Shown here: positions 26,395 through 38,126 of the stretch, in pieces | Layout of the letters: each line of letters opens with the position of its first letter | Numbering within the stretch: the stretch's first letter is position 1 | Source: Bacillus sp. NEB1478 | Lineage (GTDB): Bacteria > Bacillota > Bacilli > Bacillales > Fictibacillaceae | Assembly (NCBI RefSeq): GCF_031582965.1 | Contig: NZ_CP134049.1 | Location: 1,550,001-1,614,000 of the forward strand | DNA: 64,000 nt | Reading direction: 5' to 3' | The notes under the pieces: generated by a model | What the model was told of the DNA's origin: nothing | Databases searched by the model: none | What the model saw: only the letters and a program-made list of their open reading frames with translations | Made by a program: the position numbers and the translations under genes

Positions 26395-27054
26395 ATGGTC
26401 GTTAGAGAAAACTTTCAATCTCAATTAAATGAGTTAAAGGGATTATTAATTGAGTTAGGCACATTAACAGAAACTGCTTTAAAAGAGAGTCTTATCGCAC
26501 TAAAAACTCAAGATGTAGAAAAAGCTTTGGAAATCATTGAAAACGATGCTCGAATAAACGAATTAGAGGATGAGATTAATGATTTTGCTATTCTTCTTGT
26601 AGCAAAGCAAGCTCCTGTAGCTTCTGATCTGAGAAAAATTATTGCAGCCATAAAAATCTCTGCAGATGTTGAAAGAATGGCGGATTTTGCCGTGAATATC
26701 GCCAAATCTACCATAAGAATCGGTGAGAAAGAATTTATCAAACCGTTAGAAGAGCTTCCTAAAATGGCCGAATTAGCGATCGAAATGCTAACGAAGGCAA
26801 TTAAAGCATACATTGATGAAGATGTAGCACTTGCAAAAAAACTTTCAGAAATTGATGATGAAGTTGATGAAATGTATGGGAAAATTATTCAAGAACTGCT
26901 TAGTCTTATGACAAAGCACGAAGATAGCCTGTCACAAATTACTCAGTTATTATTTGTTTGCAGATACATTGAACGTACAGCAGACCATGCTACGAATATA
27001 GGTGAAAATGTGATATACCTTGTAAAAGGAAAAAGATTTGGTTTAAACGATTAA
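26395..27054 (+). CDS. phoU: Phosphate signalling regulator PhoU
   Basis: A 219-residue all-helical protein built of two three-helix PhoU repeats, each ending in an E/DxxxD-type metal-binding motif: ISADVERMADFAVNIAK and CRYIERTADHATNIGE. It links the Pst transporter to phosphate signalling. SD AAGGAG before the ATG. B. subtilis lacks phoU in its pst operon to my knowledge, so this is a difference from the model. Confidence 0.93.
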   Translation: MVVRENFQSQLNELKGLLIELGTLTETALKESLIALKTQDVEKALEIIENDARINELEDEINDFAILLVAKQAPVASDLRKIIAAIKISADVERMADFAVNIAKSTIRIGEKEFIKPLEELPKMAELAIEMLTKAIKAYIDEDVALAKKLSEIDDEVDEMYGKIIQELLSLMTKHEDSLSQITQLLFVCRYIERTADHATNIGENVIYLVKGKRFGLND

Positions 27055-27086
27055 AAAAGAGCGGACGAAATGTCCGCTCTTTTTTA
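27053..27086. terminator. Bidirectional terminator after phoU
   Basis: AAAAAAGAGCGGAC pairs with GTCCGCTCTTTTTT over 14 bp with a 5-base loop. Confidence 0.93.
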
Positions 27087-27098
27087 TGTATATTCAAA

Positions 27099-27554
27099 TT
27101 ATGAACTCGTAATTTCTTTTGCGATCTCGTCAAAACTCATCTTACTGTTTACTTGGTGAGTTTCCGCTCTAACTAAACCTTCAAGATTATGTGAACGTAA
27201 ATATTTTAAGAATTCTTTGCCGTCTTTAATAATTTTTCCTTGCTGTAACAGATCGCATACCTCTCCAGTACTCATTCCTTGAGTAATCGTTAGGTTCATC
27301 TCTGTTACTTTTTCTTCTTCTTTAACCGGTTCAGTTTTGTTCGCTGAAACGGGTGCTGCGCTTTTCGTTTCTTTTAATGATGTGTACTCATCTTCTGAGA
27401 TTGCTAGCTCGCCTTTTTCAGAAAGATATTGCTCTACTGTCTCTTCAGTTAATTCAGGATTATTGTTGGAGCTGTTAGTGAAATAAACTCCAGCTAATAT
27501 CCCAGTAGAGATGATAATACCTGCTGAAAATCCGCGAAGGTTTTTGCTTGTCAT
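27099..27554 (-). CDS. Membrane-anchored MltG/YceG-like domain protein (YqzC-like)
   Basis: A 151-residue protein with an N-terminal membrane helix (GFSAGIIISTGILAGVYF), an acidic linker (residues ~33-90) and a C-terminal region (NLTITQGMSTGEVCDLLQQGKIIKDG...MSFDEIAKEI) resembling the LysM-like part of MltG endolytic transglycosylases. The catalytic MltG domain is absent, so enzyme activity is not expected. SD GAGGGGAAACGT precedes the ATG. Place after the pst operon and partner gene 27576-27767 resemble B. subtilis yqzC/yqzD; that equivalence is a guess. Confidence 0.6.
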   Translation of the reverse strand: MTSKNLRGFSAGIIISTGILAGVYFTNSSNNNPELTEETVEQYLSEKGELAISEDEYTSLKETKSAAPVSANKTEPVKEEEKVTEMNLTITQGMSTGEVCDLLQQGKIIKDGKEFLKYLRSHNLEGLVRAETHQVNSKMSFDEIAKEITSS

Positions 27555-27575
27555 ACGTTTCCCCTCACAAATCTA

Positions 27576-27767
27576 TTAGTTCTTATCATTGATCATCATT
27601 TCGTCTTCTAACACTTTCATTTTCTTTTTAATTTGATAGATTTCTTTCATTAATTGAATCGAAAAATTTTCCAGCTGAGTTTCAACAGAAGTTTCACGAT
27701 TTTTTCTAAAGGAAAGAATCAATAGAACAATTCCAATGATTAATAATCCAACGATGGCAAACTCCAT
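27576..27767 (-). CDS. Small membrane protein with coiled-coil tail
   Basis: A 63-residue protein: one N-terminal helix (AIVGLLIIGIVLLILSF), then a charged, heptad-like helical tail (QLMKEIYQIKKKMKVLEDEMM). AGGAGGGTATTT stands before the ATG. It is the first gene of a two-gene minus-strand unit with the MltG-like gene. It may correspond to B. subtilis yqzD, but I cannot confirm this. Function unknown. Confidence 0.6.
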   Translation of the reverse strand: MEFAIVGLLIIGIVLLILSFRKNRETSVETQLENFSIQLMKEIYQIKKKMKVLEDEMMINDKN

Positions 27768-27865
27768 AAATACCCTCCTAATTTAAAGCTTTTCCCTTTA
27801 CTTTTATATCATAGTATTTAATCTGGGTATAGTTTTTTTCGCAAAAGTACACATAAAATACTACA

Positions 27866-28037
27866 ATTCGACTATTGTTGTGCTGAAGATATTGAAATAG
27901 AAAATGAAAAGCTGAAATAGTCGAAAATCATGTATTATTTTGTCGTATTTTCAGAATAATCAGTCGAAGCAAACGGTTTCAAAAACTTTACATAAACTGT
28001 TATCTCTTGCGGGATTTGGAAGCGTCATTTTTCGACT
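27866..28037. promoter_or_regulatory. Cluster of AGTCGAA/TTCGACT motifs (Spo0A-box-like)
   Basis: TTCGACT at 27867-27873, AGTCGAA at 27919-27925 and 27962-27968, and TTCGACT at 28031-28037; also TTTTGTCGTA at 27938-27947. The known Spo0A box core is TGTCGAA, from which AGTCGAA differs by one base. They fill the 372-bp gap before the glycan operon, which holds no gene. Confidence 0.5.
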
Positions 28038-28048
28038 TTTTTGACACA

Positions 28049-28077
28049 TTGTTTAAAAAAATAGCTGGTGTTACGAT
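28049..28077 (+). promoter_or_regulatory. Candidate promoter of the glycan operon
   Basis: TTGTTT (28049-28054), a 17-bp spacer, and an extended -10 TGT-TACGAT (28069-28077), 63 bp before the start of the DUF4912 gene. Confidence 0.45.
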
Positions 28078-28139
28078 TATTAAAAATGTTGGAATAAAAA
28101 TATTTCTATAGAATATTTGATGTAGATGAGGTGATTAAT

Positions 28140-28784
28140 TTGATAGAAGAAATTGTGAAACTGAAGAATAAAGGACTCACACTTCAAGAAATTGCTGAAA
28201 AGATGGAGATGTCTTTAGGCAAGGTACAATATCGCTGGAATAAATATAGAAAGGATCTTGTACCTGAAGAAATAGCATCTATCCCCTTTATCGAAAAACA
28301 CAAGGAAAAAAAGTGGGAAATGCCTTTTGAATATAAAGAAGCTAGTATCTGTTTAATGCCTATTTCGTCAAATCGTTTATACGTTTATTGGAGCTTTTCT
28401 GATGCGATTAAAAATATGGCCGAACAGCATTTCCGTTCAGAGTGGGATAGCCTTCCAAACGTGCTGAAAATATATGATGTTACAGATATCATATTTTTTG
28501 GACATAACGCACACCGTACGTTCGAAGTTGATCTCCCGCCAATGACAAACAATTGGTTTATTCACTCGCTAGAACCAGACCGAACGTATATTGTGGATGT
28601 TGGTACACGTACGTACGACGGCAGTTTCTTTACTCTTTTAAGATCTAACCCAGCAGAAACGGATCCTTCTCAAAATAGTGCACCTTTTGATGAAAAAATA
28701 GAACGATGGAAACAGCAAAATGTGAGTCAGCCTGAATGGCTAGAAAATTTTTCGACTTATTCGTACTATCAAAAAATCAAATAG
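28140..28784 (+). CDS. DUF4912 domain-containing protein
   Basis: A 214-residue protein. Residues ~1-40 form a helix-turn-helix-like segment (LKNKGLTLQEIAEKMEMSLGKVQYRWNKY). The remainder is a DUF4912 domain of beta-sandwich character with ICLMPISSNRLYVYWSF, NVLKIYDVTDI and SLEPDRTYIVDVGTR, resembling carbohydrate-associated immunoglobulin-like folds. I chose TTG 28140 because AGGTGATTAAT precedes it; GTG 28131 would overlap the SD. It leads a four-gene operon of glycan enzymes (12-bp gap to the next). DUF4912 genes are known to sit beside GH57 genes in other phyla. It may be a regulator or a glycan-binding subunit. Confidence 0.82.
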   Translation: MIEEIVKLKNKGLTLQEIAEKMEMSLGKVQYRWNKYRKDLVPEEIASIPFIEKHKEKKWEMPFEYKEASICLMPISSNRLYVYWSFSDAIKNMAEQHFRSEWDSLPNVLKIYDVTDIIFFGHNAHRTFEVDLPPMTNNWFIHSLEPDRTYIVDVGTRTYDGSFFTLLRSNPAETDPSQNSAPFDEKIERWKQQNVSQPEWLENFSTYSYYQKIK

Positions 28785-28796
28785 GAGAGGTACAGA

Positions 28797-31595
28797 ATGA
28801 ATAACGGGTATTTTTCATTGGTTTTACACGCTCACCTTCCTTATGTAAGGCATAAAGAAGCGAATCGGTTAGAGGAAAGATGGGTATATGAGGCAATGAC
28901 AGAGACTTATATCCCGTTGCTTTGGGTTCTTGACGAACAGCCAGAATCGATATCATGGACGATATCCTTTTCCCCTCCAGTACTTGAATTACTTAGTGAT
29001 TCCGTCATACAAAAAAGATATTTAGAGCACCTCGATACTACTCTTAAACTACTTCAAAAAGAAAAGAAACATACTAAAAATAAAAAAGAAGCAGAAATTA
29101 TTGACTTTTATGAAAAACGCTATCGGAGAATAATGGATACGTATCAAAAAACGGATTGTCAAATACTTAAAGCATTTAAATCCTTCATGAAGGAAGGAAA
29201 GGTATCTTGCATAACCTCATCAGCTACTCATGCTTTTCTTCCCTATACAGCAACGGAACAAGCGGTGAATGCACAAATTGATGCAGGTATTAAAACGTTC
29301 GAAAAATATTTCGGGGAAAAGCCTGCTGGTTTTTGGCTGCCTGAATGTGCGTATGCACCAGGTATAGATAAACGATTAGCTGATGCAGGGATTCGTTATA
29401 CATTTGTAGACGAACAAACATTATTATTGAGTAAGCCACAACCAAATAAAGGAATAGACACACCAGTTTATTCTCCGCATGGTGTGGCATTATTCCCAAG
29501 AAATCAATATATCTCAGAAACCATCTGGAACTCGTCTTTAGGTTACCCAGGTGACTATGATTACCGTGAATTTTACCGTGACGTTGCGTATGAGAGAGAG
29601 CTTGAATATATTCAAGGATTTATCCATCCAGAAGGTATTCGAATAGACACAGGACTCAAGTATTGGCGGATCACAGGAAAGACTGAAGAAAAAGAGTGGT
29701 ATAACAGAAAAAGCGCAGAAGACAAAATAAATCAGCATGCTTGGGATTTTAATCATCGCCTCATGGATTATTTACATAAGCATGATCAATTTTTTCCTCC
29801 TACATTAATAACCGCACCTTTTGATGCAGAATTATTCGGACACTGGTGGTTTGAAGGTCCAGAGTTTTTAGCAAAAACAATGGAAGTTGCACTAGAAAAT
29901 AACGTCAATTGGATTACACCTCAAGAATTTTTACACAGACATTATCAAGACCTTGAAACGGTAAGACCTCACTTTTCGACATGGGGAAGAAATGGAACTG
30001 GAGAAGTATGGCTGAACGAAACAAATGCCTGGATGTATCGCCATCTTCATCATTGTGAAAAGAAATTGGTTGAAATTGCTGCATATCTTTCTCATGGAAG
30101 AAACTCGAACATGATCGTGGAGCGTTATGCAGACCAAATGGTAAGAGAGTGGATGCTGGCTGCGAGTTCGGATTGGGCATTTATCGTGGATCAAAATAGC
30201 GCTTCTCAATATGCAAAGAACAGATTTCAAGAGCACATTGAAAGATTCCATGCTCTATATGAGTCTATTAAAAATACTGAATATAACATGAATGAAATTA
30301 TGGAATATGAAAAAGAATATCCCTTTATGAACATTCCTTTATGGTCTTATTTCACCAGTCCTCATGATCAATATGTTCAACAAAATTTTAATAAAGATAG
30401 TGAAGCTAAGAAAATTTTAATGCTGACTTGGGAATATCCTCCTATGGTTGTAGGCGGGCTATCGAGACATGTATATGATTTATCTAGAAAACTCGTTTCA
30501 TTAGGTAATGAAGTTTATGTCATTACATCATTTGTTGATGGATATCCAGAATATGAAGTTAACAACGGTGTGCACGTCTATAGAGTTTTAGGAAAACAGC
30601 CAAATTTTGAGTCTTTCTTTCATTGGGCCGGCAGCTTAAACATGGCAATGGCCGATCAAGCATTGGAAGTATTCAAAAAAGTTGAATTTGATTGTATTCA
30701 TGCGCACGATTGGCTTGTATCGGTTGCTGCACTTGCGTTAAAAAAAGCATTAAACATTCCTTTAATATCAACGATTCATGCTACAGAACATGGCAGGAAC
30801 AACGGAATCACTTCTCCTCTTCAATATGAGATCAATCAAAAAGAATGGGAGCTGATGGAGTGCTCTGATAAACTGATCGTCTGCAGTAAATATATGAAAC
30901 ATGAACTTACAGACGTGTTCAGGATACCTGAAGAGAAAATAAGCATCTTACCTAACGGGATTGACCCAGATTTGCTTGAAATTAACCAAAAAAACCAGGA
31001 AGATCATGAATTTGGAAATAAGGAAGGGCTGCTTATTTTTTCGGTTGGCAGACTAGTAAAAGAAAAAGGCTTCCAGACAATAGTTCAAGCCGCAGAACTT
31101 TTAAAACAAAAAGGAGTAGCAGTAAAATTTGTAATTGCAGGTAAGGGTCCATTACATGATGAGCTGGCTGAATTGATAAAAGTCAAACAAGTAGATAATT
31201 ATGTTGAGCTAGCAGGCTTTGTTAGTGACGAAGAAAGAAACAAGTGGCTGAATAAAGCGGATGCTGCTCTATTCCCAAGTCATTACGAGCCCTTTGGAAT
31301 TGTTGCTCTAGAGGGAATGGCATCGGGAAAATTAACAATCGTCTCAGATACAGGCGGTTTAAAAGAAATTATTGATCACGAAAAAACAGGATTAAAAGTG
31401 TACCCGGATGATGCTCAAAGTATTGTGTGGGCGGTTGAATATATACTGTCTAATCCTGAACAGTGCAAACAAATGGCTGAATTAGGAGAAAAAACAGCAA
31501 GAACAATTTTTAACTGGGATTCCATTGCAGAAAGAACTGCTTATTTATACGAACAAATCCACAACGAGAATGAAATATTAGGAGGAGTGCTGTAA
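28797..31595 (+). CDS. GH57 alpha-glucan branching enzyme fused to GT4 glycosyltransferase
   Basis: A 932-residue fusion protein. Residues ~1-530 are a GH57/DUF1957 branching-enzyme module: motif 1 HAHLPYVRH, nucleophile Glu183 in FWLPECAY, and general acid Asp343 in APFDAELFGHWWFEGPEF. Residues ~538-932 are a GT4 (GT-B) module: LMLTWEYPPMVVGGLSRHV, IHAHDWL, LPNGIDP, and the EPFGIVALEG motif with two glutamates. One chain can therefore elongate and branch an alpha-glucan. SD AGGAGAGG before the ATG. Stop overlaps the next start by one base. Separate proteins are the norm; the fusion is unusual. Donor sugar nucleotide is unknown. Confidence 0.88.
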   Translation: MNNGYFSLVLHAHLPYVRHKEANRLEERWVYEAMTETYIPLLWVLDEQPESISWTISFSPPVLELLSDSVIQKRYLEHLDTTLKLLQKEKKHTKNKKEAEIIDFYEKRYRRIMDTYQKTDCQILKAFKSFMKEGKVSCITSSATHAFLPYTATEQAVNAQIDAGIKTFEKYFGEKPAGFWLPECAYAPGIDKRLADAGIRYTFVDEQTLLLSKPQPNKGIDTPVYSPHGVALFPRNQYISETIWNSSLGYPGDYDYREFYRDVAYERELEYIQGFIHPEGIRIDTGLKYWRITGKTEEKEWYNRKSAEDKINQHAWDFNHRLMDYLHKHDQFFPPTLITAPFDAELFGHWWFEGPEFLAKTMEVALENNVNWITPQEFLHRHYQDLETVRPHFSTWGRNGTGEVWLNETNAWMYRHLHHCEKKLVEIAAYLSHGRNSNMIVERYADQMVREWMLAASSDWAFIVDQNSASQYAKNRFQEHIERFHALYESIKNTEYNMNEIMEYEKEYPFMNIPLWSYFTSPHDQYVQQNFNKDSEAKKILMLTWEYPPMVVGGLSRHVYDLSRKLVSLGNEVYVITSFVDGYPEYEVNNGVHVYRVLGKQPNFESFFHWAGSLNMAMADQALEVFKKVEFDCIHAHDWLVSVAALALKKALNIPLISTIHATEHGRNNGITSPLQYEINQKEWELMECSDKLIVCSKYMKHELTDVFRIPEEKISILPNGIDPDLLEINQKNQEDHEFGNKEGLLIFSVGRLVKEKGFQTIVQAAELLKQKGVAVKFVIAGKGPLHDELAELIKVKQVDNYVELAGFVSDEERNKWLNKADAALFPSHYEPFGIVALEGMASGKLTIVSDTGGLKEIIDHEKTGLKVYPDDAQSIVWAVEYILSNPEQCKQMAELGEKTARTIFNWDSIAERTAYLYEQIHNENEILGGVL

Positions 31596-34006
31596 TGAAA
31601 GGTGTAATCATGGCGGGTGGTAAAGGAACCCGATTAAGACCACTTACTTGTAACATGCCAAAACCAATGGTTCCGATGCTTCATAAACCAGTAATGGAAT
31701 ATGGTATTGAGCTCTTGAAAAAGTTTGGAATTACAGACATTGCGGTTACTGTCCATTACCTTCCGGATACGATAAAAAATTATTTTGGAGACGGAAGCAG
31801 CTTTGGAGTGAATTTACACTATTTTGTTGAAACAACGCCTCTTGGAACGGCTGGATCGATAAAAAATGCAGAAGATTTTCTTGATAAACGATTTATGGTA
31901 ATCAGCGGGGACGGATTAACAGATTTTAATTTAGAAAAAGGCATCCGTTTTCATGAAGAGAAGAACTCTTTAGCAACTATTTTTATGAAGCAAGTTGAAT
32001 CGCCATTAGAATATGGTGTTATCATGACAAACCAAGATGGGAAAATTATCAGATTTCTTGAAAAACCAAGCTGGAATGAAGTCTTCAGCGATACGGTCAA
32101 TACAGGAATATACATTTTAGAGCCTGAAATCTTTTCTTACATTGAAAAAGATATACCATTTGATTTCAGTAAAGATTTATTTCCCATTTTAATGAAAGAA
32201 AATAGAAACCTATATGGCTATCAAGCAGAGGGGTATTGGTCAGATATCGGAAATCTGCAGCAATATCGCCAATCACATTATGACATGTTAAATGGGCTTG
32301 TTAACCTTCCTATTCAAGGGAAAGAACAAAACCCGGGAATTTGGGTGGGGGAAAATGTAACAATTGAAGAGGGTGTAACGATTGAAGGGCCTGTGAGTTT
32401 TGCAGACGGATCTGTTATCCGAAAAGGAGCTCACGTCGGAAAGCTTTCAGTTGTAGGAAAGAACAGTGTAATATCAGCAGGCAGTTCATTGAAAAAGTCA
32501 GTATTATGGAATGATGTTTTCGTCGGGACACATTGTGAGCTTAGAGGAGCTACAATTGCTAATGGAACGAAAATAGAAAAAGATGTCTCTGTATTTGAAC
32601 ATGCAGTAGTCGGTGATCATTGTACAATTGGCAAGAAAGCAACTTTAAAGCCAGACGTGAAAATTTGGCCTGAAAAAGAAATTTATGAAGAAGCACTTGT
32701 ACATACCTCAATTGTATGGGGTAAAAAAGCGACAAAATCCTTATTTGGAAGCAGGGGTGTTTCAGGAATTGCGAATGTAGAAATTACACCTGATTACATC
32801 GCAAGACTTGCCTCAGCGTATGGAGCTGTTCTTCCATATGGGTCTAAAATCCTCATCGCGAGTGATTCACACGATTTTTCAGTTATGATTAAGCAATCAT
32901 TTATACAAGGTCTTCATTCATCAGGTGTTCATACACTCGATATAAGTCCAACCGTTGCACCCGTTGTAAGATTTTCAATTGAAGATGAAATATTGCAAGG
33001 TGGCGTATATGTTAGATTCTCAAATTACACAGGTGAAAAAGAATTAATGATCGAATTCTATGATAATAAAGGGCTGCCGATTCATTCAGACCTAGAACGA
33101 AAAATTGAAAATGCCTACTGGCAGGAAGATTACAGGCGTGCTTCTTTTGACAGGATAGGAAAAGGGGCTGTTCAAGCGAACAAACATGAAAGTTATATTT
33201 CTGCCCTTTTAAGTGATATACAAGTGGAACGAATCCAGAAAACCAAGTTTCGTGTTGTAGTTAACTATAATCACCAACCTTATCTAAATTTCATTCCTAA
33301 TCTGTATAACCAGCTCAATTGTGAGATATTAACGGCTCCATATCAAACACAGGCTGATGAAATGGCATCTTTTGTAAAGGTAACAAACGCAAATATTGGT
33401 GTTCTAATTGGGGAATCTGGCGAAACACTAAGGCTCATAACAGAATCCGGTGAAGTATTAGATGAAGAAACGATGCTTGCTCTATATGTATTTACATCAT
33501 TCTTGCATGGCAAACAAAAAGAGATGGCGGTCCCTGTTTATGGTTCGTCAGCTTTAGATTCGATTGCAGAACGCCTTAACGGAAAGCTAGTGCGAACGAA
33601 AGCAAACCCCCGATCGATAATGGAAGTGGGAGAGGGAGTGTTGAACTATCAATATGATGCACAATACGCATTTGTTCACATCCTTGAAGTAATGGCGATC
33701 GAACAAATCACACTCTCTGAGCTGGTAAAGCTCCTTCCTGATGTGCACATGCTAAGAGAATATGTAACATGTCCTAAAGATAAAAAAGGACGTGTAATGC
33801 GAAAGCTGATGGAAGATATCCGGGATAATAATGTAGAGCTGCTCGATGGAATAAAAGTTTTTCATCCTGAAGGAGGCTGGACACTCATTTTACCTGACGT
33901 AGAACAGCCAATCTTTACAGTGTACTCACAAAATAAAAATCCGGAACAAGCCAAACAATCAGCTTTGCAGTATATAGAAAAAATCCAATTATATCAGCAG
34001 GTGTAA
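31595..34006 (+). CDS. Sugar-nucleotidyltransferase fused to a degenerate phosphomannomutase domain
   Basis: An 803-residue protein. Residues 1-235 are a nucleotidyltransferase with GGKGTRLRPLT and VISGDGLTDF; residues ~250-370 show hexapeptide (left-handed beta-helix) repeats; residues ~385-800 align with phosphomannomutase/phosphoglucomutase (FGSRGVSGIANVEITP, ASDSHDFSVMIKQSF). In the mutase part the active-site loop TASHNP is replaced by RFSNYT (Ser476 kept, HNP lost) and the metal loop DGDxDR by GESGET (606-611). It probably makes an NDP-sugar (GDP-mannose, or NDP-glucose) for the GT4 domain, while the mutase domain may be structural or regulatory. Third gene of the operon. Confidence 0.85.
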   Translation: MKGVIMAGGKGTRLRPLTCNMPKPMVPMLHKPVMEYGIELLKKFGITDIAVTVHYLPDTIKNYFGDGSSFGVNLHYFVETTPLGTAGSIKNAEDFLDKRFMVISGDGLTDFNLEKGIRFHEEKNSLATIFMKQVESPLEYGVIMTNQDGKIIRFLEKPSWNEVFSDTVNTGIYILEPEIFSYIEKDIPFDFSKDLFPILMKENRNLYGYQAEGYWSDIGNLQQYRQSHYDMLNGLVNLPIQGKEQNPGIWVGENVTIEEGVTIEGPVSFADGSVIRKGAHVGKLSVVGKNSVISAGSSLKKSVLWNDVFVGTHCELRGATIANGTKIEKDVSVFEHAVVGDHCTIGKKATLKPDVKIWPEKEIYEEALVHTSIVWGKKATKSLFGSRGVSGIANVEITPDYIARLASAYGAVLPYGSKILIASDSHDFSVMIKQSFIQGLHSSGVHTLDISPTVAPVVRFSIEDEILQGGVYVRFSNYTGEKELMIEFYDNKGLPIHSDLERKIENAYWQEDYRRASFDRIGKGAVQANKHESYISALLSDIQVERIQKTKFRVVVNYNHQPYLNFIPNLYNQLNCEILTAPYQTQADEMASFVKVTNANIGVLIGESGETLRLITESGEVLDEETMLALYVFTSFLHGKQKEMAVPVYGSSALDSIAERLNGKLVRTKANPRSIMEVGEGVLNYQYDAQYAFVHILEVMAIEQITLSELVKLLPDVHMLREYVTCPKDKKGRVMRKLMEDIRDNNVELLDGIKVFHPEGGWTLILPDVEQPIFTVYSQNKNPEQAKQSALQYIEKIQLYQQV

Positions 34007-34009
34007 GTA

Positions 34010-35974
34010 ATGCCGAGACATTTAGTGTTAGGAAACGGAAAGCTGTTAATTAATTTAGATCAGAATTTGCAGATAAGAGATATTTATTTCCCGTATGTGG
34101 GCCAGCAGAATCATGTTCAGGGTCATGTTAACCGTTTAGGAGCCAGTATCAATGGCTCCTTTTCTTGGCTTTCTTCGAATGAATGGGAGATCAAGCCAGG
34201 TTATCATAAGGATTCTCTTGTGACACAATCATTTGCAATTAATCACAAAGAAAGAATAACCTTGAAAATTGAAGATGCTGTTCATCAAAGAGAAGATATG
34301 TTCATGCGGCGTATTACAGTTATGAATGAATCGGATGAGAATAAGGAAATTAAACTGTTTTTTCACCAGGATCTTTCAATTTATGAAACAGAGGTAGGGG
34401 ATACGGCTTACTATGATCCTGAAAGATCCGTAATTATTCACTACAAGAAAAATCGGTATTTTCTCTTTCATGGAATGTTTGATGGTAATGGAATGAATCA
34501 ATATACAACAGGTGTAAAGCGATTCTTAAGTGCAGAAGGAACCTGGAAAGATGCTGAAGATGGGTACCTTCATGTAAATCCGATTGCTCAAGGGTCTGTA
34601 GACAGTACGTTTTCTGTTAAAGGAATCGTTCCTCCAAATCAGAGTAAAAATGTGTTCTATTCTTTAACGGTAGGAAGAAATCGGGATGAGGTTTTTTCAC
34701 TATTTGATTATTTAATGGAAATCGGACCGTCTTTAACACTTGATAAAATCGATGTGTACTGGCGCAGATGGGTTAATAAAACAACGCTTAACTCTTGTGA
34801 TCTTTCTGCAGAATTGATGGATTTATATAATAGAAGTTTATTGATCATCCGCACACAAACGAATGAAAATGGATATATCATAGCAGCAAATGATTCTGAT
34901 ATCCAGCAGTATAATCGGGACCATTACAGCTACATGTGGCCGAGAGACGGGGCATTAATCGCGGTGTCTGCTGCAAAAGCTGGATATCATGGTATGGTAA
35001 AAAACTTTTATAGACGCTGTGCTGATGTCTTAACAAAAGAAGGGTACCTTCATCATAAATATAATCCTGATGGATCGATTGGTTCGTCATGGCATCCTTT
35101 GTTAAATAAAGAAGGGGAAAGCCAGCTGCCTATTCAAGAAGACGAGACAGCCCTAGTATTATGGGCGTTTTGGGAACATTATAATGAAACGGGTGACATT
35201 GAGTTTGCTCAATCTTTATACCGTTCTTTAGTTAGACCTAGTGCACGGTTTTTGCTGCAATATATGCATGATGAGCTTGAACTTCCGCTTCCTTCTTACG
35301 ATCTTTGGGAAGAAAGGCGCGGTATCTTCACCTTTACGGCTAGCAGTGTATACGGCGGATTGATGGCAGCTTCTAAATTTGCCACACTTTTTGGCGAAGA
35401 TGATCGTGCAGAACGCTACAAAAAAGGTGCTGAGAAAGTTAAGTCGGGTATGGAGAAACATCTGTATGATGAGGATTCCGGGAGATTTCTCAGGGGAATT
35501 TATCTGTTGGATAATAACGCATATAAAAAGGATTTTACAATGGAGTCCAGCATGTATGCCTTGTTTGCTTTTGGTGTATTTTCGGCAGAGGATGTTCGAG
35601 TTGTACGAACTATGCAAGCGATGGAAAAAGAATTAAGCATTAAAACGAACGTTGGAGGGTTTGCAAGATATACAAACGACTATTACTTTCAGCAGACACA
35701 TGAGATAGAGAAGGCACCGGGTAATCCTTGGCTGATATGTACGCTATGGCTTGCTAAGTGGTACATTCAATGTGCAAAATCCAAAGAAGATCTGAAAGCT
35801 CCGCGTCAAATATTGGATTGGGTACAGAAACACAGTTATTCTACCGGTGTCTTATCGGAACAGCTCCATCCATTCACTGGAGAAGCACTGTCGGTTGCGC
35901 CATTAACATGGTCTCATGCTACTTTTGTAGACGTAGTAAATGAATACACAACTGTTTATGAGAAACTTTCATAA
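34010..35974 (+). CDS. Glycoside hydrolase family 15 (glucoamylase-like)
   Basis: A 654-residue enzyme. Residues ~1-260 are the N-terminal beta-sandwich of prokaryotic GH15 proteins (NGKLLINLDQNLQIRDIYFPYVGQQNHV). Residues ~270-654 are the (alpha/alpha)6 barrel with SYMWPRDGAL, general acid in QEDETALVLWAFWEHY, and the base glutamate in GVLSEQLHPFTGEAL. No signal peptide is seen, so it acts in the cytoplasm, releasing glucose from alpha-glucan ends or cleaving trehalose-like sugars. Last gene of the operon, 3 bp after the previous stop; a natural degrading partner of the GH57-GT4 enzyme. No terminator is visible behind it. Confidence 0.88.
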   Translation: MPRHLVLGNGKLLINLDQNLQIRDIYFPYVGQQNHVQGHVNRLGASINGSFSWLSSNEWEIKPGYHKDSLVTQSFAINHKERITLKIEDAVHQREDMFMRRITVMNESDENKEIKLFFHQDLSIYETEVGDTAYYDPERSVIIHYKKNRYFLFHGMFDGNGMNQYTTGVKRFLSAEGTWKDAEDGYLHVNPIAQGSVDSTFSVKGIVPPNQSKNVFYSLTVGRNRDEVFSLFDYLMEIGPSLTLDKIDVYWRRWVNKTTLNSCDLSAELMDLYNRSLLIIRTQTNENGYIIAANDSDIQQYNRDHYSYMWPRDGALIAVSAAKAGYHGMVKNFYRRCADVLTKEGYLHHKYNPDGSIGSSWHPLLNKEGESQLPIQEDETALVLWAFWEHYNETGDIEFAQSLYRSLVRPSARFLLQYMHDELELPLPSYDLWEERRGIFTFTASSVYGGLMAASKFATLFGEDDRAERYKKGAEKVKSGMEKHLYDEDSGRFLRGIYLLDNNAYKKDFTMESSMYALFAFGVFSAEDVRVVRTMQAMEKELSIKTNVGGFARYTNDYYFQQTHEIEKAPGNPWLICTLWLAKWYIQCAKSKEDLKAPRQILDWVQKHSYSTGVLSEQLHPFTGEALSVAPLTWSHATFVDVVNEYTTVYEKLS

Positions 35975-35981
35975 ATCTCTC

Positions 35982-36010
35982 TTGCTCGTTACATTAGAAT
36001 TTGTTATCAT
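35982..36010 (+). promoter_or_regulatory. Promoter of rpmG
   Basis: TTGCTC (35982-35987), a 17-bp spacer and TATCAT (36005-36010) with an extended TGT in front. It lies 84 bp before the L33 start. Confidence 0.7.
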
Positions 36011-36093
36011 GTTAAAGTATGGTTTATTAGATGGAAAATGACTGTTAGTAACCATGAAAATGTACTTTGGTAAAGATTTGGAGGGAAACAACA

Positions 36094-36243
36094 ATGCGTG
36101 TAAATATTACTTTAGCTTGTACTGAAACTGGTGATCGTAATTACATCACTACAAAAAACAAGCGTACAAATCCAGACCGTTTAGAGCTTAAAAAATACAG
36201 CCCACGTTTAAAGAAATACACAGTTCACCGTGAAACTAAGTAA
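36094..36243 (+). CDS. rpmGA: 50S ribosomal protein L33, zinc-free (C-) type
   Basis: A 49-residue large-subunit protein starting [20 protein letters not shown]. The zinc-binding CxxC pairs of the C+ type are lost: the first reads CTET and the second SPRL ([11 protein letters not shown]), so no zinc is bound. Bacilli commonly keep such a paralogue, and its position before yqgN agrees with B. subtilis rpmGA. It has TTTGGAGGG before the ATG, its own promoter and its own terminator. Confidence 0.95.
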
Positions 36244-36255
36244 TTTCACTTAAAG

Positions 36256-36298
36256 ACGCCTGCTCCCATGACATCATGTGGAATCAGGCGTTTTTTAT
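36256..36298 (+). terminator. Terminator of rpmG
   Basis: ACGCCTG pairs with CAGGCGT, with an inner CATGA/TCATG pairing in the loop, followed by TTTTT. Confidence 0.85.
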
Positions 36299-36394
36299 TT
36301 ACATATTAGTCTAGATTATTAGTCTAGAAATAAATATATGGCTGTTTTTTAAAAGTTTATTGTTTTTTTTATAAGTAGAAGCGTTTATGAAAAA

Positions 36395-36651
36395 GTTGAT
36401 TGGAGCGGAATTGACGAGACTCCTCGAAAATGAACTTCACATTTTTCTTCGTCCGATGTAACGCTGTCGAAGCCTTCCTTGTCCTGTGTGAGTACATACC
36501 AGCCACCTGAGTGTTCGTCTCTCAAGGCAAAAGTCCAGGGAGCTCGGTTCGCTGTTGTTTTTCTTGTAGGCGCTTGATCAGCACTTCATATATCCTCCAC
36601 GGTGCTCACCTTACCATCTTGGAAAGCGAGCATTCTGTAACCGAAATCAAC
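36395..36651. repeat. Dispersed intergenic repeat, copy 3
   Basis: It runs from GTTGATTGGAGCGGAA to CCGAAATCAAC. Compared with copy 2b it shares the block from GACTCCTCGAAAATGAA to CGCTGTCGAAGC and TTCCTTGTCCTG. The right half (GGTGCTCACC, GGAAAGCGAGCATTCTG) resembles copy 1. The 36244-36779 gap otherwise holds the rpmG terminator and a TTAGTCTAGA direct pair (36307-36330); no gene is supported. Confidence 0.8.
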
Positions 36652-36779
36652 CCCTTTCAAGAGCTTCAAAGATTGCGAAAGCAGCTAAAATAAATGACCT
36701 GCTAAAGTAGACTCTTAGGCTTTTATAGGAGAATATGAAATAATAAGATAAATGTATGAAAAAAATGAGGTGTTTACAT

Positions 36780-37337
36780 ATGACAAAATCGGAATGGCGA
36801 AAAAAGATAAAACAATTGTTAGTTTCCATTGAAGAAAACGAGAGGAAAGAAAGAAGTATTAAAATCTCGAAGCTTCTTTTACAAACATTACAATGGAAAA
36901 AGAGCAAATGTATTGGGATAACAATTTCGAGGAATTTTGAACTTGATACATCCATGATTATCGAAATGGCATGGAAAGAAGGAAAAACAATATGTGTGCC
37001 TAAATGTTATAAAGAGAACCGTAAGATGGAATTTAGAGAACTGCATTCTTTCGAAGATCTTGAAAATGTGTATATGGATTTATATGAACCAAAAGTTGAC
37101 AAGACGGAAGTGATTCAGCCTGAACGTATTGACTTGTTAGTTGTTCCTGGATTAGTATTTGATCGGTCGGGCTATCGAATTGGATATGGCGGAGGATATT
37201 ATGACCGGTATCTTGCAAATTTTAATGGAAATACTGTATCCCTTGCCTTTATTGATCAAATTAGCGAAAATCTGCCTCATGAAAAATTTGATATTCCTGT
37301 TGAACAGATTATCTCTGAAACAGGGTTGCAGATTTAG
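36780..37337 (+). CDS. yqgN: 5-formyltetrahydrofolate cyclo-ligase
   Basis: A 185-residue cytosolic enzyme converting 5-formyl-THF to 5,10-methenyl-THF with ATP. The family motif LLVVPGLVFDRSGYRIGYGGGYYDRYL is clear near residues 120-145, and the N-terminus KSEWRKKIKQLL with ERKERS is normal. I chose ATG 36780, preceded by TGAGGTG seven bases away. It abuts the DUF92 gene (TAG directly followed by ATG), suggesting cotranscription. Matches B. subtilis yqgN. Confidence 0.92.
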   Translation: MTKSEWRKKIKQLLVSIEENERKERSIKISKLLLQTLQWKKSKCIGITISRNFELDTSMIIEMAWKEGKTICVPKCYKENRKMEFRELHSFEDLENVYMDLYEPKVDKTEVIQPERIDLLVVPGLVFDRSGYRIGYGGGYYDRYLANFNGNTVSLAFIDQISENLPHEKFDIPVEQIISETGLQI

Positions 37338-38126
37338 ATGGATAGTTTCTTTATCGCGGGAATTGTTTTAATATGTATCTTATCCGTTTATTACGGATTT
37401 TTAACATTGAAAGGAAGTATTACAGCTTTTTTTACAGGATTATTTATTTATATATCTTTTGGGTGGGAAGGTCTTATTATTCTTGGGACCTTTTTTCTTA
37501 CGTCTTCATTATTAACAAAATGGAAAAAAGAAAAGAAACGGGATAAAAGAGCAAGTGAAGAAGAAAGGAAAGGGAGAACTTCTGGACAAGTGTTAGCAAA
37601 TGGCGGAGTGGCTTTAATGGCTGCTATTTTTCATTTGTTTTTTGAAAACTCTTTTTGGCTTGTTGTTTTCGTTTGCTCTTTTGCAGCTGCAATGTCAGAT
37701 ACCTGGGCTTCTGAAATTGGTATTTTATCAAAAAGGCAACCCTTCCATATTAAAAAATGGAGAAAAGTTGAAAACGGTTTATCTGGTGCAGTTTCATGGC
37801 TTGGAACTATTGCGTCTATTGCCGGAGCAGCTATAATCGGTATTTGTTTCTATTTTTTGTATCCAATAGCATCTTTTGCTATCGTGATTCTTATTATGTT
37901 TGCAGGTTTTATGGGTAATCTAACAGATACATTTTTAGGAGCGTGGTTTGAGCAAAGTTTTTATTGCTCTGTATGTAAAACACAAACTGAAGCTGCTTTT
38001 CATTGTGAAACAAAAACTTTAAAGGTTTTTGGATATTCCTGGTTTACTAATAATGTTGTGAATTTCCTTTCTACTTTAATTGGCGGGTGTATAGGGGGAG
38101 GGATATATTTATGTCTGAACAGCTAA
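37338..38126 (+). CDS. DUF92 family membrane protein
   Basis: A 262-residue protein with about six or seven hydrophobic segments. DUF92 marks include GRTSGQVLANGGVA, AAAMSDTWASEIG, ENGLSGAVSWLGT and GNLTDTFLGAWFEQ. In plants the family includes VTE6, a phytyl-phosphate kinase, so a polyprenyl-phosphate kinase role is possible, but it is not shown for bacteria. A CSVCKTQTEAAFHC pair may bind metal. It overlaps mobA by 16 bp. Confidence 0.82.
   Translation: MDSFFIAGIVLICILSVYYGFLTLKGSITAFFTGLFIYISFGWEGLIILGTFFLTSSLLTKWKKEKKRDKRASEEERKGRTSGQVLANGGVALMAAIFHLFFENSFWLVVFVCSFAAAMSDTWASEIGILSKRQPFHIKKWRKVENGLSGAVSWLGTIASIAGAAIIGICFYFLYPIASFAIVILIMFAGFMGNLTDTFLGAWFEQSFYCSVCKTQTEAAFHCETKTLKVFGYSWFTNNVVNFLSTLIGGCIGGGIYLCLNS

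Follow-up and report, generated by a model that had tools for sequence, protein, structure and literature searches.

Does Bacillus sp. NEB1478, a soil bacterium whose 3.93-Mb genome is a single contig, make and recycle an alpha-glucan without glgBCDAP, the classical glycogen operon of Bacillus? The question is raised by four genes packed on the forward strand at 28131-35974 of a 64-kb stretch of this genome (NZ_CP134049.1, positions 1,550,001 to 1,614,000; called here the window, whose coordinates are used throughout). An earlier sequence-only reading had described them as a self-contained system making and recycling an unusual alpha-glucan. Our analysis showed that the operon is real and conserved, and we put at about 0.6 the probability that it encodes a compact glycogen-like alpha-glucan system working in the cytoplasm. 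What surprises most is that one enzyme domain has long been dead and that GT4 and DUF4912 persist elsewhere as an orphan remnant.

Gene and domain content of the operon

The genes are labelled A to D in transcription order. The features are as follows (aa, amino acids; HTH, helix-turn-helix; ORF, open reading frame).

28131-28784, forward: gene A, DUF4912 protein (PF16258), 217 aa, GTG start, the start being kept in relatives
28140-28259, forward: HTH-like N-terminus, gene A residues 4-43, from an alignment of 29 sequences and a structure model
28332-28688, forward: DUF4912 domain, gene A residues 68-186, a fibronectin-III-like beta sandwich in the model
28797-31595, forward: gene B, GH57-GT4 fusion, 932 aa
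28818-30326, forward: predicted GH57 branching enzyme domain with BE_C, gene B residues 8-510, E183 and D343 kept
30411-31559, forward: GT4 domain, gene B residues 539-921, R752, K757, E831 and E839 kept
31595-34006, forward: gene C, nucleotidyltransferase, hexapeptide and pseudo-phosphohexomutase protein, 803 aa
31595-32290, forward: sugar-1-phosphate nucleotidyltransferase domain, gene C residues 1-232
32339-32716, forward: left-handed beta-helix (hexapeptide) repeats, gene C residues 249-374, model partly of low confidence
32735-34003, forward: phosphohexomutase fold with its four catalytic loops lost, gene C residues 381-803
34010-35974, forward: gene D, GH15 glucoamylase-like hydrolase, 654 aa, N-terminus not hydrophobic
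34010-34759, forward: gene D N-terminal domain, residues 1-250, the sole part left, as a separate ORF, in 10/11 alkaliphile loci
34832-35938, forward: GH15 catalytic domain, gene D residues 275-643, with E434 (SYDLWEE) and E617 (LSEQ)

The ORF positions agree with the tight packing reported earlier (gaps of 12, -1 and 3 bp), and the Pfam domains with the content then proposed (DUF4912, GH57-GT4, nucleotidyltransferase with phosphomannomutase, GH15). No 19-residue Kyte-Doolittle window above 1.54 and no hydrophobic N-terminus was found in any of the four proteins, which for gene D fits the cytoplasmic hydrolase of the earlier description.

The GH57 half of gene B matches PF03065 (174.2 bits) and the BE_C family PF09210 (80.5 bits), both over cut-off. 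E183 and D343, at the positions of the catalytic glutamate and aspartate in the enzymes of Thermococcus kodakarensis and Thermus thermophilus, are invariant in the nine rows of the gene B alignment (A1) and kept in distant full fusions. Its solved relatives are 2b5d (429 bits), 3n8t, 5wu7 and 3p0b; 2b5d is the Thermotoga maritima protein and 3n8t that of T. kodakarensis, and T. thermophilus and Pyrococcus horikoshii have stand-alone enzymes of this kind as well. Domains and catalytic residues together predict a branching enzyme. The available text of a review lists GH57 branching enzymes for T. kodakarensis, T. maritima, T. thermophilus and P. horikoshii (Chem Rev 2024, PMC11046441).

The GT4 half matches Glycos_transf_1 of Pfam with 137.9 bits. 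It bears the Arg-Lys pair and the E-x7-E of the GT4 motif (R752, K757, E831, E839), and all 33 GT4-bearing rows examined keep these four residues. They are intact even where the GH57 part is a remnant whose GFWLPEC glutamate has become Y, K or R (P0262, P0276, P0279), and in four database proteins that join DUF4912 to a GT4 of the same type without GH57 (P0244, P0258, P0323, P0337).

Gene C matches NTP_transferase (194.9 bits), LbH/hexapeptide and PGM_PMM_I (81.5 bits) in Pfam, and its residues R13, K23, D106 and D217 are invariant in 17 aligned sequences. The mutase had been called decayed, and its four catalytic loops indeed all differ from those of 1wqa. These loops are absent in all 17 aligned gene C sequences and present in 4/4 stand-alone control mutases. 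Moreover, none of the four loop patterns occurs in the whole sequences of the 120 listed database relatives (P0121-P0240, from several phyla; 114 of them of at least 780 aa). Because no listed relative has any of the loops, the death of the mutase in this lineage is, as judged from these sequences, ancient. Many of the same relatives carry the name mannose-1-phosphate guanylyltransferase, to which some add phosphomannomutase. Compared with such a bifunctional enzyme, gene C has no intact mutase loops, and the naming is likely a common misannotation. The best solved relative is 8x7s (tlr0611, 230 bits; next 7whr, 151 bits), named UTP-glucose-1-phosphate uridylyltransferase, which with its chain of 388 residues differs from gene C in lacking a mutase domain. 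Against the GlgC model TIGR02091, gene C reaches 122.9 bits, under the cut-off of 424.9. For the nucleotide donor, 8x7s points to UTP and NF052502 to GTP; according to the available text of one study, relatives of Rv3264c differ in specificity and one makes GDP-glucose (PMC5247666).

Gene D matches PF00723 (Glyco_hydro_15) with 100.9 bits. E434 and E617 were assigned by motif to the catalytic glutamate positions of GH15. Its 338.3 bits with the oligosaccharide amylase model TIGR01577, under the cut-off of 820.7, leave the general GH15 membership unaffected.

Gene A matches PF16258 with 102 bits (cut-off 29.4). The HTH-like start noticed in the sequence-only reading is present in the structure model, with helices at residues 4-13, 18-24 and 29-43; the mean predicted local distance difference test score is 87-97 over residues 1-40 and falls to 65 over residues 41-50. 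In this region Pfam gives a hint of Sigma70_r4_2 below cut-off (E 0.0029). Among the 29 aligned sequences, only the Bacillales versions have this HTH. A sequence search of the PDB returned chance-level matches only (E 0.3 and 0.46), and in the open-access text available DUF4912 was mentioned only in work on cotton callus.

From family membership and kept residues we infer each step of the following pathway. Gene C would convert a sugar 1-phosphate into nucleoside diphosphate (NDP)-glucose, or another NDP-hexose. Using NDP-glucose, the GT4 half of B would extend an alpha-1,4-glucan by glucose units; the GH57 half would cut chains and re-attach them as alpha-1,6 branches, so that one polypeptide would both lengthen and branch. 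Gene D would take glucose off the non-reducing ends, aided by a type I pullulanase encoded elsewhere in the genome. DUF4912 would partner GT4 as a fibronectin-like beta sandwich, its likely task being glucan binding or docking, and in Bacillales its HTH may let the protein regulate the operon. The dead mutase domain may, at a guess, be a non-catalytic regulatory or sugar-phosphate-sensing module.

GlgC, GT5 GlgA and GlgP are not found over cut-off in Fictibacillus

NEB1478 is treated here as a probable Fictibacillus, because the named loci closest to its operon come from this genus. We searched 18 Fictibacillus genomes (NEB1478 counted in), seven other genomes of the family and 16 order-mates. 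GlgC, GlgP and GT5 GlgA were over cut-off in none of the 18 genus genomes and none of the seven same-family genomes; 12, 10 and 12 of the 16 order-mates, respectively, were positive, so the searches work. In 18/18 genus genomes the best matches to GlgC and GlgA lie in open frames of the size of gene C and gene B, respectively. In NEB1478 itself, the search for glgBCDAP suggested by the earlier reading gave no GlgC, GT5 GlgA or GlgP over cut-off. All seven GH13 matches of this genome were inspected, six of them against NCBIfam. They are a type I pullulanase (754 bits, cut-off 504.5), one sucrose-phosphorylase-like and two amylase or maltodextrinase-like proteins below cut-offs, a 1473-aa protein with an amylase region (by reading only), a phosphotrehalase and a second protein of the phosphotrehalase family; none looks like GlgB or GlgE.

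Since canonical GlgC, GT5 GlgA and GlgP are absent over cut-off in 18/18 genomes while the GT4-GH57 fusion, the nucleotidyltransferase and the GH15 enzyme keep their catalytic residues, the making and recycling of an alpha-glucan proposed earlier is the best reading in Fictibacillus; that the polymer is unusual is unproved.

A full GH15 is found in 21/25 genomes of the family sample, namely all 18 of the genus, where GlgP is absent, and G020, G021 and G023. Two of the others (G018, G024) have neither GH15 nor GlgP and no frame of gene B size. Of 299 genomes of the order, 34 carry the fusion and 226 have a GlgC match, which is over cut-off in 225. Both occur together in 20 genomes, one of which (G466) has a weak GlgC match only (6.8e-112). 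GlgC is rarer in genomes with the fusion (Fisher p 0.02, uncorrected for kinship).

Conservation and erosion across Bacillota

A scan of close relatives gave 28 named loci, 17 from Fictibacillus and 11 from alkaliphilic Bacillaceae. All 28 have the DUF4912 gene, then B, then the nucleotidyltransferase gene. The full four-gene order with a full GH15 is found in 17/17 Fictibacillus loci, while the GH15 catalytic domain is missing in 11/11 alkaliphile loci; these 11 genomes all have GlgP (GH15 elsewhere was searched only in G026). In 10/11 alkaliphile loci (L018-L024, L026, L027, L029), an ORF of 213-255 aa after gene C matches the N-terminal domain of gene D only (37-69 bits), and one locus is without any gene D remnant. 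The conservation of this stub without the catalytic part suggests that it has a separate role, for instance in binding glucan. Gene B lies in two frames in two alkaliphile drafts (L026, L027).

In a sample of 398 genomes of the phylum, a match to the fusion at 1e-60 is found in 201, and many of the rows listed cover GH57 only; at least 40 genomes have the full-length fusion, taken as a listed row spanning at least 800 of 926 positions. We fetched 20 distant Bacillota loci with their flanks, picked mainly among the best matches. The whole four-gene order, which the sequence-only reading had proposed to search for in other genomes, is found in six; in a seventh locus the order is the same but GH57 and GT4 are encoded separately. 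DUF4912 adjoins the fusion in 18/20 of these loci and in 28/28 of the named ones. The operon thus has relatives in other Bacillota, whole or shrunken.

Several loci are shortened to different degrees. L089 and L090 keep A and B at the same locus, in L092 a 589-aa frame contains the GT4 and C is short, and L093 has only DUF4912 and a 409-aa GT4 left at the same locus. L091 has a shortened C and an N-terminal piece of GH15, and no A or B was found there. In the GT4 tree, 16 Bacillales rows group together (support 97/92), with L085, L090, L092 and L093 as long branches, so that descent of the short forms from the full fusion is inferred. The pattern points to a stepwise loss in which GT4 and DUF4912 were usually kept longest, L091 being the exception. 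As a lead, yqgL-yqgM of B. subtilis may be such a remnant; DUF4912 gives a match in the B. subtilis control genome.

Upstream region and flanks

27968-27981, forward: candidate cre-like box AGCAAACGGTTTCA, one mismatch to a cre consensus
28049-28077, forward: promoter-like TTGTTT-N17-TACGAT, with TG before the -10 (extended -10)

Position 28049, given earlier as the start of the operon, is the first base of the promoter-like hexamer, and no ORF starts there. The element TGNTACGAT is present in 18/18 aligned upstream regions. A stricter promoter scan did not list the 28049-28077 site (22 promoter-like sites, against a shuffle mean of 29.2). The operon promoter looks vegetative. No sporulation sigma consensus was seen by eye in the 18 aligned regions, no scan for those sigma factors having been run. 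As these regions share an extended -10 type element, storage during sporulation, suggested by the sequence-only reading, finds no support. A cre-like core, gcaa[ac]cg[gt]tt[at]ca, occurs in 10/18 aligned regions and the remaining ones show variants; the box suggests carbon catabolite control. In 27000-37400, Rfam gave no match at gathering score and none with E < 0.1, the seven weak matches all lying within 27000-27153.

In Fictibacillus, the operon is flanked by phoU or pstB and a yceG-like gene on the opposite strand, and on the other side by rpmGA or yqgN and DUF92. The same flanks, whole or partial, are found in L085, L088-L091, L093 and L095-L098; in L092 the contig ends and only the yceG side is visible. 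The operon had been seen as an insert breaking the B. subtilis order. Relatives from several families of Bacillales have the genes at this very place, with identical neighbours on either side in whole or part, which argues that it is not an insert, B. subtilis not being among the loci compared.

The short YceG-like protein (27099-27554, minus strand; weak Pfam match below cut-off) is encoded between phoU and the operon in 17/17 Fictibacillus loci. A dispersed intergenic repeat lies at 36340-36700, between rpmGA and yqgN, with at least 60 matches in the genome (40 places scored of 153 candidates). Two of its blocks are conserved and its middle varies. By eye, the ends resemble imperfect inverted repeats (GGCTGTTTT...), so that the architecture is like that of a miniature inverted-repeat transposable element. 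It gave no Rfam match and strand folds gave no signal.

Discussion

A glycogen-like alpha-glucan system in the cytoplasm accounts best for the four genes, and several observations weigh against it. The GH57 half scores below the NCBIfam branching-enzyme equivalogs (NF041133, 307/1000 bits; NF041566, 265/920), which are by name narrow models for Thermococcales and Thermus. The model nearest to gene C in NCBIfam is mannose-1-phosphate guanylyltransferase (247 bits, cut-off 440). The fusion and a GlgC match together in 20/34 order genomes do not fit simple replacement, and strict replacement of glgBCDAP is rejected on this count. For the same reason, the self-containment proposed earlier does not extend to fusion-bearing genomes in general. 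The inverse contrast of GH15 and GlgP between Fictibacillus and the alkaliphiles amounts to few events. It fails in distant Bacillota, where GlgP is present in 4/10 genomes with an adjacent GH15 and in 4/10 without, and two same-family genomes (G019, G022) have the fusion with neither. We do not claim GH15 as a general stand-in for GlgP. Finally, GT4 and DUF4912 outlast GH57, GH15 and gene C in L093 and in the database proteins, so that the core function may be something other than glucan storage.

This last point leads to an alternative that we consider unlikely, in which GT4 and DUF4912 are the core and their product is a short alpha-glucan primer or some other alpha-glucoside rather than storage glycogen, with GH57, GH15 and gene C as helpers dropped by several lineages. 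It would explain why L093 keeps just these two genes, why GT4 residues persist in all 33 rows, also where the GH57 glutamate is lost, and why four proteins fuse DUF4912 to GT4 without GH57. However, distantly related genomes that retain every module intact have them in one and the same order, which is an argument for a joint pathway; L091 has lost the opposite set, and eroded genomes may have changed function. Breakdown or remodelling of imported maltodextrin, with GH57 and GH15 trimming chains and GT4 as a salvage enzyme, appears very improbable. The type I pullulanase, the cre-like box and a locus (L036) with amylase-like proteins and ORFs read as a sugar transporter (by reading only) would fit it, but L036 lies about 0.84 Mb from the operon and such a process needs no dedicated nucleotidyltransferase or synthase-brancher fusion. 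We give the lowest credence to a mannose-containing or surface polysaccharide made from GDP-mannose. The names of many gene C relatives and the nearest NCBIfam model speak for it, but the mutase loops are absent in 120/120 listed relatives and no membrane-like segment occurs in the four proteins. Moreover, alpha-glucans are the substrates of GH57 branching enzymes and of GH15 enzymes.

The alpha-glucan system would share its chemistry with glgBCDAP (NDP-glucose formation, alpha-1,4 extension, branching and breakdown). It differs in using GT4 in place of GT5, GH57 in place of GH13 and GH15 in place of the GT35 phosphorylase, in a nucleotidyltransferase far below the GlgC cut-off and in the fusion of synthase and brancher. 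The GlgM (maltose-1-phosphate synthase)/glgA_Coryne branch has the same GT4 fold, and TIGR02149 is the best NCBIfam model for the GT4 half; with 150.1 bits, under a cut-off of 302.4, this half is not filed as GlgM, and no GlgE was seen among the seven GH13 matches. Stand-alone GH57 branching enzymes have the same domain content and catalytic residues, here fused to GT4. In the available text of PMC11046441, a GT4 of unclear role clusters with GH57 or debranching genes in archaeal glycogen loci, and a GH15 glucoamylase is a catabolic glycogen enzyme of Sulfolobus; that text does not mention a fusion, DUF4912 or a pseudo-mutase, and the term GH57-GT4 was not found in 300,000 characters of the review. 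The open-access literature gave no recognisable account of the operon, which may be described elsewhere, as subscription journals were mostly not covered.

More tentatively, the operon could represent a further bacterial glycogen route without GlgC, GT5 GlgA, GlgB and GlgP, built on a GT4-GH57 polymerase-brancher, DUF4912 docking and a nucleotidyltransferase whose dead mutase senses sugar phosphate. The sensing would be analogous to eIF2B, which is related to nucleotidyltransferases and binds sugar phosphates. This route would be the sole one in Fictibacillus and old in Bacillota, with a GT4-DUF4912 remnant in some Bacillaceae.

For a protein with a dead mutase half, the common guanylyltransferase/phosphomannomutase annotation would be corrected. 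The operon would give DUF4912 and the orphan GT4 proteins of Bacillaceae a first testable function. Surveys by GlgC, GlgA, GlgB and GlgP only would score Fictibacillus as glycogen-negative, and a conserved alternative operon would change the counts of glycogen-positive bacteria.

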